Assembly (NCBI GenBank): GCA_002085155.1
Contig: NASX01000022.1
Coordinates: 5,971-69,970 of the forward strand
Length of the DNA: 64,000 nucleotides
From: Sorangiineae bacterium NIC37A_2
Lineage (GTDB): Bacteria > Myxococcota_A > Polyangia > Polyangiales > Polyangiaceae
Reading direction: 5' to 3'
A program made the position numbers and the translations under genes. How positions within the stretch are numbered: position 1 is the first letter of the stretch; every line of letters starts with the position of its first letter. The notes under the pieces were generated by a model. It worked only from the letters and a program-made list of their open reading frames with translations. It was not told where the DNA came from and did not search any database. Positions 33,655 through 38,066 of the stretch are shown here, piece by piece.

Positions 33655-34677
33655 TCAGTCCTTCCAGAGAATCTTCCACGGATTTTGTTTCAAGTCTCGT
33701 ACGAGCTCCTGCAAATCGTCATAAAGCGCTTCATCCATCAAGAGCGCCCCGGCGCTGCCTTTGCCGGCCTTGATCTCCGAAACGATGCTCTGGGCGTCGT
33801 TTGCCACGGATTTGGCCGTCGTCAGCAGGGCTTTGGTGTCCTTTGCGGCGACGCGGATGGTCTCGAGCTGCTCCGGCTCGGCCAGGACGCTGACAACGGC
33901 GCTCCCATCTTTCAGCACAGTGCGCGTGTCCTTCAGCATCGGCTCTAGGTTTTCGTCGAGGACGCGGGTGATGTTGTCGAGGCGAGTCAGGATGCGCTCG
34001 ATGCGCGGGCCGTCGACGTACTGCGTCCGAACGGCGGCGAGGAGCTCTTCGCTGTGGGCTGCGATCGAGTCGGCCCGCTTCAGGAGAAGGTCGACCTCTT
34101 CTTTTCGATCGCCGAGCAGCGCAGCGGTGCCCTTGAGGGTCTGATGCAGAGCGTCGATGGTCTCGCCGATCTGTTTCTCGCGGCCGACGGCGCCTTCATA
34201 GGCGCGGTGCATTAGTTCGTAACCTTCCCCGAGCAGCTGATCGATGCGGGGCGGGGAGACGCCGAGCACTGTCGCGTCGGAAGGGAGCACCGGGAGCGAA
34301 GGCGTTCCGGGTTCAATGGCGAGGTGCATCTCGCCGAGCACCCCTTGAGCGGTGATGAAGAAGACCGCATCCTCGTGGATCACGTTTTTGTAGTTGGCGT
34401 CGATGGCGGCGACCACGCGCACCGGAGGCGCCTTTTGTCCTGTGCGCGGGCTGATTTGATCGCCTCGGAACTCGATGGCCTGGACGCGGCCCACGCGGAT
34501 GCCCGCGATGCGCACCGGTGAGCCGGACTGCAGACCGCCGGGGTTCTCGAATTCGACGAAGATGCGGTGGCTCGGCTGCAAACTGAGCCCTCCCATCATG
34601 ACGACGAAACCCACGAGCAGGACGACGGACAGCGCCATCAACCCGCCCACTTTCATTTCCATCGATCGTTCGCTCAT
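33655..34677 (-). CDS. MCE/MlaD-family substrate-binding protein
   Basis: 340 residues. N-terminal membrane anchor (GGLMALSVVLLVGFVVMMGG, about 11-30), then a single MCE domain (about 37-135: FENPGGLQSGSPVRIAGIRV and VFFITAQGVLGEMHLAIEPG), then a long helical region (about 150-340). MlaD proteins form hexameric rings in the periplasm that shuttle phospholipid between membranes. Last gene of a five-gene operon with overlapping start/stop codons. The extended helical tail could form a needle or tunnel as in other MCE proteins. Confidence 0.9.
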   Translation of the reverse strand: MSERSMEMKVGGLMALSVVLLVGFVVMMGGLSLQPSHRIFVEFENPGGLQSGSPVRIAGIRVGRVQAIEFRGDQISPRTGQKAPPVRVVAAIDANYKNVIHEDAVFFITAQGVLGEMHLAIEPGTPSLPVLPSDATVLGVSPPRIDQLLGEGYELMHRAYEGAVGREKQIGETIDALHQTLKGTAALLGDRKEEVDLLLKRADSIAAHSEELLAAVRTQYVDGPRIERILTRLDNITRVLDENLEPMLKDTRTVLKDGSAVVSVLAEPEQLETIRVAAKDTKALLTTAKSVANDAQSIVSEIKAGKGSAGALLMDEALYDDLQELVRDLKQNPWKILWKD

Positions 34678-35420
34678 GTCGTCTCGAGGGGGCCTTCCGG
34701 TTTGCCGTGGATGAACTGCCCTACGACGGGATCGGTCGACCCGAGCAAGTCCTCTTGCGTGCCGCTCGCAAGAACTTTCCCTTTGTAGAGCATCGTCACC
34801 CGGTGTGCGATGCCAAAAATGCTCGGCAGATCGTGGGACACCACGATGCAGCCCACGCCTCGCTTCTCGGCCAGCTCGGCGATCAGCGCGTCGACGCGGC
34901 GGGCGCTCAGGGGGTCGAGGCTGGTCGTCGGTTCGTCGAACAGCATGTACTCGGGCTCGAGGGCCAAAGCGCGGGCAACGGCGACCGATTTTCTCATGCC
35001 GTCCCCGAGCCGCACCGGCAGCGCCGTCGCATAGTCGGCCATCCCGACCTCCTCGAGCAGGCTCCGAGCCCGAGCGAGCGCCGCTTTTTCGCTGAGGTCT
35101 GTGTGTTTGAGGAGAGGTAGACTCACGTTCTCCTCACACGTCATGGAGTCGAAGAGCGTCGCGTGCTGGAGCACGAGCGCGCACTTCTTTCGGATCGGAT
35201 AGAACTGTTTTTCGGTGAAATGGGTCACGTCGACGCCATCGACCAGGACCTGGCCTCGGTCCGGCCGGAGCAGGCCTACGATGTGCTTCAACAGCACGCT
35301 TTTTCCGGCGCCGGAGGTGCCAATCACAAAATGGATCTCGCCTTCTTTGGCGCTGAGATCGACGCCGTCCAAGATGACCTTTTCGCCGAAGCTCTTGTGG
35401 ATCCCGATGAGCTCGATCAA
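34674..35420 (-). CDS. MlaF-like ABC ATPase with degenerate signature motif (ATPase 2)
   Basis: 248 residues. Walker A GTSGAGKS (34-41), Q-loop Gln85 (LVLQHATLF), Walker B YMLFDEPTTSLDP (Asp162, Glu163) and H-loop His196 (IVVSHDLPS) are intact. The signature motif, normally LSGGQ or LSGGM, is LGDGM (138-142, in VRLGDGMRKSVAVARA). It would energise phospholipid transport with the MlaE-like permeases beside it. The defect is the complement of that in the first ATPase of the operon, which has an intact signature and no H-loop His. Overlaps both neighbours by four bases. Confidence 0.9.
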   Translation of the reverse strand: MIELIGIHKSFGEKVILDGVDLSAKEGEIHFVIGTSGAGKSVLLKHIVGLLRPDRGQVLVDGVDVTHFTEKQFYPIRKKCALVLQHATLFDSMTCEENVSLPLLKHTDLSEKAALARARSLLEEVGMADYATALPVRLGDGMRKSVAVARALALEPEYMLFDEPTTSLDPLSARRVDALIAELAEKRGVGCIVVSHDLPSIFGIAHRVTMLYKGKVLASGTQEDLLGSTDPVVGQFIHGKPEGPLETT

Positions 35421-36268
35421 GACCCCCCCACGATTTCGACGAAGGCGCCGATGATGAAGCCGAGGATGATCACGGCGAGGGACGACTGAACCACTGCGCG
35501 GGTCGTCGCGTCGCCGACGCCCCGGGAACCGCCCTCCGCGTAGAGGCCCGCGTGGGAGCTCACGAGCGGCACCGCTGCGCCAAAGACGAGGCTCTTGACG
35601 ATGCCCATGGCGATGTCGACTCCGTCGACGAAGCGGAAGTCGAGGAAGGTGGTCGGGTTGATTTCGAAGGCGAAATAACCTGTCGCGACGCCCGAGACCA
35701 CGGCGACCGCCCCGCCGATCAGGGTGATGAGGGGCGTGTAGATGAGGCTCGCGAGCACCCTCGGCAAGACCAAGGTCACGACGGGATCGGCGCCGGAGAG
35801 GCGGAGCGCGTCGAGCTGGTCGGTGACGCGCATGCCGCCGATTTCGGCCGCGATCCCCGCGCCGACGCGGGTGGCGAGCATGAGCGCGGTGAGGGTGGCG
35901 GCCAGATCCCGCGTCAGGATCTCGAGATAACTCGGGCCAATCGTGGTCATGTCCGGGACCACGCGGGCGGCCTGAATGCCCGCCTGGTAGACCAAAATCG
36001 AGCTCACGAAGGCGAGGACCAAGGCGACGAACCCGAGGGAGCGGATGCCGTCCTCGGCGATGCGATCACTGACGCCGCCCCGCTCGAGGCGCGGAAACGC
36101 CGCGGTCACCGCGCTCATGGTTCGGAAGATGTTGCCTTCTTCGTCGCTCGGCAGAACGAAGCCGGGCATCGGCCTCTGCACGACGAGCTCCGTCTGTTTC
36201 GGGGGGATCGAGGCGCGCCGAATCTCGTCGCGGGTGCGGAGCACCGGTTCGTCCTCAGGTTGACTCAT
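35417..36268 (-). CDS. MlaE-family ABC permease (permease 2)
   Basis: 283 residues. A cytoplasmic N-terminal extension of about 70 residues precedes the membrane part. The MlaE hallmark cytoplasmic coupling region reads ATLTALMLATRVGAGIAAEI, then GGMRVTDQLDALRLSGADP. Four to five membrane helices follow the usual MlaE plan, ending with VVQSSLAVIILGFIIGAFVEIV. It would form the phospholipid channel in the inner membrane, probably as a heterodimer with permease 1 encoded directly upstream. Four-base overlaps at both ends. Confidence 0.9.
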   Translation of the reverse strand: MSQPEDEPVLRTRDEIRRASIPPKQTELVVQRPMPGFVLPSDEEGNIFRTMSAVTAAFPRLERGGVSDRIAEDGIRSLGFVALVLAFVSSILVYQAGIQAARVVPDMTTIGPSYLEILTRDLAATLTALMLATRVGAGIAAEIGGMRVTDQLDALRLSGADPVVTLVLPRVLASLIYTPLITLIGGAVAVVSGVATGYFAFEINPTTFLDFRFVDGVDIAMGIVKSLVFGAAVPLVSSHAGLYAEGGSRGVGDATTRAVVQSSLAVIILGFIIGAFVEIVGGS

Positions 36269-37038
36269 GGTGCGAGCGCCTCCGCGGCAAAAGAAACGAG
36301 AGCATCAAAGACGAAGATCATCAGCGCCGAGAGCACGACACTTTGATTCACCGCGCGACCCACCCCGGGCGCGCCGCCCCGGGCGTGCAGGCCGAAGGAG
36401 GTGCTCGTAGCGCCGATGATGATCCCGAAGATGAGCGCTTTGAGAGCGCCGTGGAGCACATCCTCAGGGCCGATCAGGCCGCTCACGAGACCGTTCCAAA
36501 AAGTCACCGGGTGCACCCCGAGCAGCCCAAATCCGCTGAGAGCCGCGCCGAGGAGCGCGACCGCCATCGACAGCAGCGTGCCGAGGACGGTCGTGAGCAC
36601 GATGGCGAGGACGCGCGGAGCGACCAGATAGGGCCCGGGATCGACAGCGATCGCGCGCAGACCGTCGACCTGTTCGGTGACCGTGAGCGTGCCGAGCTCG
36701 GCGGTGTTGTTGCTCCCGGCGCGTCCGGAAATCATGAGGCCGGTGAGGACGGGGCCGACTTCACGCAGGATGCCAAAACCCGCGCCCCAGCCGAGCAGTC
36801 CGTGGGCCCCGAAGCGGGTGATGAGGGGCGCGGATTGGACGACCATGATGCCGCCCACGAACAGCGCCGTGGCGACGATGACGGGGATCGAGCCAACTCC
36901 GAGCCGCAAGAGGCTGTCGCGGAGCTGGCGACCGTCGACCTTACCGCGCAAAGTGCCGTCGAAGGTCGTGGCGAGCACGACCCCGAGGCCGCCGAGCCCC
37001 TGCAGGAAATCACCGAAGAAGCGGAGAAGTTCCCTCAT
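36265..37038 (-). CDS. MlaE-family ABC permease (permease 1)
   Basis: 257 residues. N-terminal amphipathic helix (MRELLRFFGDFLQGLGGLGV), membrane helices beginning IPVIVATALFVGGIMVVQSA, and the coupling region REVGPVLTGLMISGRAGSNN, then TAELGTLTVTEQVDGLRAI. This is the more canonical of the two permeases; it differs clearly from permease 2 in sequence and lacks the N-terminal extension. Overlaps both neighbouring genes by four bases. Confidence 0.9.
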   Translation of the reverse strand: MRELLRFFGDFLQGLGGLGVVLATTFDGTLRGKVDGRQLRDSLLRLGVGSIPVIVATALFVGGIMVVQSAPLITRFGAHGLLGWGAGFGILREVGPVLTGLMISGRAGSNNTAELGTLTVTEQVDGLRAIAVDPGPYLVAPRVLAIVLTTVLGTLLSMAVALLGAALSGFGLLGVHPVTFWNGLVSGLIGPEDVLHGALKALIFGIIIGATSTSFGLHARGGAPGVGRAVNQSVVLSALMIFVFDALVSFAAEALAP

Positions 37039-38066
37039 TTCTTCCTCCAGGAGTCCGGCGGGCTCGGCTCCGACTCACTCGGGGGCGGGGGCGCCTCCGC
37101 CCAGGAGTGCCGCGCCGGAGCGCTGCTCGGAGGAGGCACACTTGCGTCGGCTGAGCCGGGGAGCTCGGGGGAGTTCCAAGGGGGGGCGGAGGGTGAAGGC
37201 CTCCAAGCGGGCACCTCGGGTTTGGCTTGAGCGAGCACGTGGGCCAAAAGCCCCTCTCCTTGTTGGGGAGCTTCGGGGCGTTTGAGCGTACCAGAGGAGC
37301 TGAGCAGTTCGTCGAACGCCGCGACAGAGATCCTCTCGCTCGGCGAGAAGGCGCCGCCCAAAAACTCCCGCACGAAGTCCATGCGCGCGCTCCGCGCTTC
37401 GCTGGCGGGCCCTTCGTAAACGACGCGCCCGGCCCGGAACACCGCCACGCGATCGACGGACCCGAGCACACTCGCGACGTCACTCGAGACGACTGCGATC
37501 GTCGCGCCCGTTTTTTCTTGCTGCCGCCGGAGGAGCGCGAACGTGCGCGCGGAGGTCACCGGGTCGAGGCCGGCCGCGGGCTCGTCATAAAGGAGATAAG
37601 CGGGCCGATGGATCGCGGCGCGCGCGAGTCCCACGCGCCGCTTCTGGCCCCCCGAGAGCCCCTGGACCGCGCGTTCCTCGAAGCCTGCGAGGCCGACCGT
37701 TGCGAGCGCTTCGGCGACGCGACTCCGGATCTCGCTCGGATCGCGGACCCCGCGCCGCTTGAGCGGAAAGGCCACGTTCTCTCCGACCGTCAGGTGCTCG
37801 AAGAGGGCGATGTTTTGGAAGGCCATTCCGAGCCGCTCCTGCAGCCGCGCCCGCTCGGTGTAACGAGCGCCAACCATCTCCTCGCCTTGGATGCGGATGC
37901 TCCCGGCGTCCGGCTCGATGAGTCCTGCGATGGCCCTGAGCGTGAGGCTCTTGCCCGAAGCGGGCGGCCCCACGATGCCGAGGATCGTCCCATCGGGCAC
38001 CGTGAGCGCGACCCCTCGCAGCGCAGGCAGATCGAAGGACTTATAGAGGCGCTCTACCGAGATCAC
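37035..38066 (-). CDS. MlaF-like ABC ATPase lacking H-loop His, with Pro-rich tail (ATPase 1)
   Basis: 343 residues. Walker A GPPASGKS (33-40), Q-loop Gln84 (MAFQNIALF), canonical signature LSGGQ (137-141) and Walker B YLLYDEPAAGLDP (Asp161, Glu162). The H-loop His is replaced by Ser195 (AVVSSDVASV). After about residue 235 there is a non-conserved tail, Pro/Ser-rich at the end (SAPARHSWAEAPPPPSESEP), about 100 residues longer than a plain MlaF. First gene of the MCE operon. With ATPase 2 it would form one complete ATP site (its signature plus ATPase 2 Walker/H-loop) and one degenerate site. Confidence 0.88.
   Translation of the reverse strand: MISVERLYKSFDLPALRGVALTVPDGTILGIVGPPASGKSLTLRAIAGLIEPDAGSIRIQGEEMVGARYTERARLQERLGMAFQNIALFEHLTVGENVAFPLKRRGVRDPSEIRSRVAEALATVGLAGFEERAVQGLSGGQKRRVGLARAAIHRPAYLLYDEPAAGLDPVTSARTFALLRRQQEKTGATIAVVSSDVASVLGSVDRVAVFRAGRVVYEGPASEARSARMDFVREFLGGAFSPSERISVAAFDELLSSSGTLKRPEAPQQGEGLLAHVLAQAKPEVPAWRPSPSAPPWNSPELPGSADASVPPPSSAPARHSWAEAPPPPSESEPSPPDSWRKK

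Follow-up and report, generated by a model that had tools for sequence, protein, structure and literature searches.

Complementary ATPase defects suggest an asymmetric MCE-family transporter with two permeases and two ATPases in Myxococcota

Complementary active-site motifs in a five-gene MCE operon

A minus-strand operon from Sorangiineae bacterium NIC37A_2 very probably encodes, as judged from its sequence, an MCE-family lipid ATP-binding cassette (ABC) transporter in which two different permeases are combined with two different ATPases, the latter forming a heterodimer with one complete hydrolytic site and one degenerate site. The operon occupies positions 33655-38066 of the window, by which we mean the whole 64,000-nucleotide stretch that was analyzed (contig NASX01000022.1, positions 5,971 to 69,970 of the forward strand; assembly GCA_002085155.1, 5.0 Mb in 150 contigs, 98% complete), and all of its features given below lie on the minus strand. 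An ABC site is composed of the Walker A, Walker B, Q-loop, and H-loop elements of one ATPase and the signature motif of the other, and efficient hydrolysis requires both the catalytic Glu and the H-loop His (PMC7544095). ATPase1 (37035..38066; 343 aa, GTG start), defined by its open reading frame (ORF), Pfam match, alignment, and AlphaFold model, retains Walker A, Walker B (Asp161-Glu162), and the signature LSGGQ (residues 137-141, 37644..37658), with Ser195 (AGT, 37482..37484) at the position of the H-loop His. ATPase2 (34674..35420; 248 aa, TTG start), an MlaF-like protein by ORF, Pfam, alignment, and structure, retains Walker A, Walker B (Asp162-Glu163), and the H-loop His196 (CAC, 34833..34835), with a degenerate LGDGM (residues 138-142, 34995..35009) in place of the signature. 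These residues had been reported in a preliminary description of this DNA, and alignment and direct reading of the DNA confirmed them to the residue. Since an ATPase1 homodimer would lack the His or, in other lineages, the Glu, and an ATPase2 homodimer would lack the signature, the heterodimer alone would have a complete site, and exactly one.

The complementary defects appear to mark one working and one broken ATP site across the Myxococcota. Every locus in which both ATPases could be read (71/71, ~60 of them distinct) carries its damage on one shared composite site, leaving one consensus and one degenerate site, so that the co-occurrence of the two defects, a check proposed beforehand, was borne out; the two genes also co-occur genome by genome. 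The preliminary description had proposed that a heterodimer would have one full and one doubly degenerate site, and comparative evidence from beyond the window supports this proposal; the strongest support for it is the phylum-wide spread of the pattern together with a second lesion chemistry (Glu to Asp replacing the loss of His), neither of which that description contained.

The five ORFs are open and follow the order ATPase1, permease1 (36265..37038; 257 aa), permease2 (35417..36268; 283 aa), ATPase2, and MCE protein (33655..34677; 340 aa, with a single MlaD/MCE domain by ORF and Pfam analysis). Each gene junction is a four-base overlap, reading ATGA, ATGA, TTGA, and ATGA in operon order, and the gene order and overlaps first described are thus borne out by the ORF coordinates and junction sequences. 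Pfam assigned ABC_tran, MlaE, MlaE, ABC_tran, and MlaD to the five products in turn, each above its curated cut-off: the two PF02405 (MlaE) matches scored 202 and 174 bits (cut-off 22.5), and the PF02470 (MCE domain) match in the MCE protein scored 60 bits (cut-off 25.1). Alignment and tree placed the two MlaE-family permeases in a P1 and a P2 clade, respectively. With the MlaF equivalog model (cut-off 441 bits) the operon's ATPases scored 132 and 185 bits, and both are therefore relatives of MlaF, not MlaF itself. In a search confined to this locus, no STAS (MlaB) or MlaC gene was found among the five overlapping genes, and the flanking ORFs had no Pfam match; Rfam gave zero matches.

AlphaFold models of the single chains support these assignments. 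The ATPase2 model has a mean predicted local distance difference test (pLDDT) score of 93.5; in ATPase1, the domain exceeds 90 over most of its length and the extra C-terminal 100 residues lie mostly below 50. The best solved structural matches of both ATPases are MceG and MlaF, ATPase2 fitting the MlaF fold, its best match, at 1.5 Å over 247 columns, and in the PDB the permease2 profile matches MlaE chains best. The C-terminal tail of ATPase1 (37035-37350) comprises ~100 Pro/Ser-rich residues. It has no counterpart in the aligned orthologues, whose C-termini lie close to a conserved GPL. MceG of mycobacteria likewise carries a long extension at its C-terminus, and this extension contacts its partner.

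Lesion chemistry, phylogeny, and distribution

Among 91 distinct ATPase1 sequences, which are related by descent, so that the phylum-wide counts given here are not independent trials, 90 have lost the Walker B Glu, the H-loop His, or both, and 90 keep the SGG of the signature. The exceptions are L295 from genome G290, in which Glu and His are intact and the D-loop is changed to GRDP, the ATPase2 of that genome (L241) still reading FGDGM, and L293, which has the signature LAGGL. In ATPase2 (109 distinct sequences), Glu and His are invariably retained and SGG is invariably absent (0/109); this class was defined for these counts by a filter excluding LSGG signatures, which makes the count circular and leaves the motif-free tree as the unbiased check. 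An intact Walker A is present in 89/91 ATPase1 sequences, the other two being without that region, and in 109/109 ATPase2 sequences. For comparison, 71 other MlaF-like or related ATPases from the same set of loci keep the H-loop His in 71/71, the Glu in 70/71, and SGG in 69/71 cases; one of the two without SGG, L274, is an ATPase2 by tree.

The lesion chemistry varies and the site is always the same, namely that formed by the ATPase1 Walker and H-loop motifs and the ATPase2 signature. Polyangiales and related families carry an ATPase1 with His replaced by Ser and the Walker B Glu kept, and in some families of the window's class (L249, L250) this same state of ATPase1 accompanies an ATPase2 signature of LSDGM. 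Outside these groups, in Anaeromyxobacter/Myxococcaceae-like families, the ATPase1 Glu is replaced by Asp (YDDPTAGLDP) with the H-loop His kept, and the ATPase2 signatures read FGDGM, IGDGL, VGDGL, VGPSE, LGAGL, and LPAGE. A few ATPase1 sequences, L072 and L284 among them, lack both Glu and His.

Two trivial sources of these substitutions were considered and rejected. Chance or sequencing error was ruled out by the recurrence of identical residues in ~43-60% identical orthologues from dozens of genera. Pseudogenes were ruled out by the five open, overlapping frames and by motifs conserved phylum-wide; a genome of the same genus (G002) nevertheless has a broken ATPase2 frame (L261).

In an ATPase tree built without the signature, Walker B DE, and H-loop columns, ATPase1 forms a single clade with a Shimodaira-Hasegawa-like approximate likelihood ratio test (SH-aLRT) support of 100, and ATPase2 forms another with a support of 99, which includes L274, filed by score among the other ATPases. 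Canonical MlaF-type ATPases fall outside both clades. Permease1 and permease2 likewise separate into two clades in the permease tree (supports 99 and 100).

We surveyed the system in 59 relatives (the window genome counted) and in 284 Myxococcota genomes. Permease1 orthologues, 48-57% identical, are present in 41/59 relatives including the window genome itself, with a clear score gap beneath, and the regions around 40 of them read, almost without exception, LSGGQ...DEP...SSD for ATPase1 and LGDGM...DEP...SHD for ATPase2. Whole-genome profile searches separated true ATPase1 (>340 bits) and ATPase2 (>390 bits) from other MlaF-like proteins (below ~285 bits), contig-end pieces and genes with broken frames excepted. 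ATPase1, ATPase2, and permease1 occur together in 40/59 relatives and none of the three occurs in 14/59. The discordant relatives (G002, G003, G026, G030, and G036) are metagenome-assembled genomes (MAGs) of 550-1500 contigs; G030, a 91% complete MAG with ATPase2 and without ATPase1, is the one case left without explanation. Neither ATPase was found alone in any of the closed or near-closed genomes checked, an occurrence that the preliminary description had named as contrary to its proposal. In the phylum sample, relatives of ATPase2 and of permease1 were each found in 120/284 genomes, both in 114/284, and neither in 158/284. The twelve genomes discordant for the two are mostly fragmentary MAGs, and in G182 and G188 an ATPase2 that had looked absent turned up in the locus, either in divergent form or at a contig end. 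Among the best 80 loci of a GTDB scan, LGDGM-type ATPases are confined to records that carry the name Myxococcota or Deltaproteobacteria, and the loci from other phyla have LSGGM/LSGGQ-type signatures where readable.

A proposed asymmetric cycle and competing explanations

In the machine that we propose, permease1, permease2, ATPase1, and ATPase2 would assemble at the inner membrane and be coupled to periplasmic MCE subunits of a single kind, with a lipid as the substrate suggested by the MCE family. ATPase1 and ATPase2 would pair as a heterodimer whose complete site unites Walker A, Walker B, and the H-loop of ATPase2 with the LSGGQ of ATPase1, which is predicted to complete the working site, and ATP would be hydrolyzed there. 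The degenerate site would combine the ATPase1 Walker motifs with the ATPase2 LGDGM; with no normal signature and with the H-loop His (here) or the Walker B Glu (other lineages) missing, it would most likely bind ATP and rarely hydrolyze it. Binding of ATP at this second site is probable because Walker A is intact wherever it was read; the Q-loop is also kept. In TM287/288 the degenerate site holds the nucleotide domains in contact (PMC5216877), and by analogy the degenerate site considered here would keep both ATPases together through an asymmetric cycle.

It is extremely improbable, in our view, that the heterodimer hydrolyzes ATP at both sites and that the substitutions are simply tolerated, with no functional asymmetry. 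Polyangiales ATPase1 does keep Walker A, the Walker B Glu, and the Q-loop, and the Glu to Asp change elsewhere is conservative. However, both Glu and His are required for efficient hydrolysis (PMC7544095), and two distinct catalytic losses on the same site, with the facing signature lost each time, are hard to square with selection for hydrolysis there.

The presence of two permeases and two ATPases would also fit two homodimeric transporters encoded in one operon, an ATPase1 dimer serving permease1 and an ATPase2 dimer serving permease2, and the pairs ATPase1-permease1 and permease2-ATPase2 do lie on different contigs in some families (f17: L283/L284 versus L255/L256). Yet neither homodimer would have a complete site, a pattern that persists phylum-wide with nearly invariant motifs, each operon has a single MCE gene, and the permeases co-occur with both ATPases; we regard this arrangement as highly improbable. 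For the heteromeric transporter, the operon splits hint at which permease pairs with which ATPase (ATPase1 with permease1, ATPase2 with permease2), and they are mixed: f17 and f25 fit this pairing, G010 does not, and in several genomes, G018 (L147), G029 (L146), and G034, the two ATPases stand side by side apart from the permeases, an arrangement that speaks for ATPase1 and ATPase2 working as a pair. In Sorangium cellulosum So0157-2, locus L152 (NC_021658.1) carries ATPase2, permease2, and permease1, with ATPase1 encoded elsewhere. Gene-order counts from short loci are misleading in this respect.

The window genome encodes four MlaE permeases, two in the operon, one alone on contig C84 (L035), and one on contig C20. 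It also encodes an intact MlaF-like ATPase (LSGGM, DEP, THD; L263), and the preliminary description had named an intact third ATPase preferred by these permeases as contrary to its proposal; in that case ATPase1 and ATPase2 would be regulatory or decaying. A precedent exists in mycobacteria, where several MCE systems are served by MceG from a distant locus (PMC9882608), but the ATPase in question adjoins its own MCE gene on contig C109. Moreover, MlaF-type ATPases are present in 59/59 relatives searched, including the 14 without the two-ATPase system, which argues that the MlaF system is separate. ATPase1 and ATPase2 also keep Walker A, the Q-loop, and their own halves of the full site phylum-wide, which is not expected of decaying genes, and it is very unlikely that the third ATPase powers these permeases.

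Several observations weigh against a heterodimer with a single hydrolytic site. The predicted structures are monomers, and the proposed heterodimer is backed by gene linkage, co-occurrence, and the comparison of sequences. The Walker B Glu of the window ATPase1 is intact, so that slow hydrolysis at the degenerate site might persist. Independent events are few: the loss of the ATPase2 signature has one origin, the Glu and His traits each changed ~3 times in the rooted ATPase1 tree, and the ATPase1 traits offered too few independent pairs for an informative sign test. The window copy is itself divergent, with long branches, an ATPase1 identity of ~43-51%, and the unusual C-terminal tail. Within the genus of the window genome, G001 (98% complete) lacks the two-ATPase system, and in G002 the ATPase2 frame diverges after residue 198 and neither permease1 nor ATPase1 is present; a recent loss of the system within this genus is possible.

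The operon has the components of an MCE (Mla/Mce, type VIII) transporter, namely MlaE-family permeases, an MCE-domain protein, and MlaF/MceG-type ATPases. It resembles MlaFEDB of E. coli, Acinetobacter, and Pseudomonas (type VIII ABC; PDB 6xbd, 7d06, 7cha) in its MlaE-fold permeases, MlaF-fold ATPases, and one-domain MCE protein. The solved Mla complexes, however, contain homodimers of one ATPase and one permease sequence, each from a single gene, whereas here each is split into two diverged clades, and the MlaB and MlaC genes of the canonical system are missing from this operon. In a PDB search, each Mla or Mce complex listed had a single ATPase sequence. Mycobacterial Mce1 (YrbE1A/YrbE1B with MceG; PDB 8fed) likewise has a heterodimer of two different permeases, but its MceG is a homodimer (PMC9882608), encoded elsewhere and shared among systems, and it has six different MCE proteins versus one here. 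The heterodimeric exporters TM287/288, TmrAB, TAP, and ABCB11 combine a catalytic loss in one nucleotide-binding domain (NBD) with a signature change in the other, leaving one composite site intact (PMC5216877, PMC7544095); their transmembrane fold and family are different, and the site logic is alike by convergence. A survey of MCE neighborhoods in Proteobacteria found that one-domain MCE genes are preceded by genes for a permease and an ATP-binding protein, and the consulted passages of it do not speak of any arrangement with two ATPases (PMC5561183). The open literature, in which subscription papers and preprints are mostly not included, yielded no account of an MCE system with two ATPases, as the preliminary description had also supposed.

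Among eukaryotic transporters, CFTR NBD1 lacks the catalytic Glu and has Ser at the H-loop, opposite a non-canonical NBD2 signature, and ABCG5/ABCG8 is an asymmetric lipid transporter; neither is linked to MCE proteins. We think it likely that the two-ATPase system represents an ancient class of MCE lipid transporters spread through the phylum, every member of which is asymmetric and combines two permeases and two ATPases with a single hydrolytic site. The second site would have been lost by replacement of either Glu by Asp or His by Ser, and the class would be a bacterial lipid-transport counterpart of the asymmetry of CFTR, TAP, and ABCG5/ABCG8. An asymmetry with one working site, known in CFTR-like and drug-pump transporters, appears to be new within the MCE family. 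MCE transporters, so far described with homodimeric ATPases, could then be fully heteromeric, which bears on the directional movement of an asymmetric lipid. Within a single phylum, one four-protein machine occurs with at least two lesion types, and the genomes that encode it also carry intact symmetric MlaF paralogues, so that a natural series is ready for swaps and reversions.

Neighboring genes and other MlaE-linked ATPases

In two loci of the window's family, the gene immediately upstream of ATPase1 belongs to the YscJ/FliF family of type III secretion/flagellar ring proteins (L064:8004-8858, L060:7563-8354).

The MlaE permease gene on contig C20 of the window genome (L036:4035-5683) overlaps an ABC ATPase gene that reads DDP for DEP, GTNR without an H-loop His, and MSFGN at the signature. 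Homologues of this ATPase stand beside MlaE in six more genomes (L318-L323), where DDP is shared, the H-loop His is missing in the five that are readable, and the signatures are of the LSFG/LSAG kind. This type of ATPase is conserved and apparently hydrolysis-dead, with no partner ATPase adjacent in the locus examined.

Outside the two-ATPase system, an MlaF-like ATPase in G048 (L267:3799-4893) has DDP in Walker B with His and LSGGM intact. In L291 (4345-5967), another ABC ATPase, encoded just downstream of the MCE gene on the opposite strand, has a partly divergent signature (-SGGQ) and a THQ H-loop.

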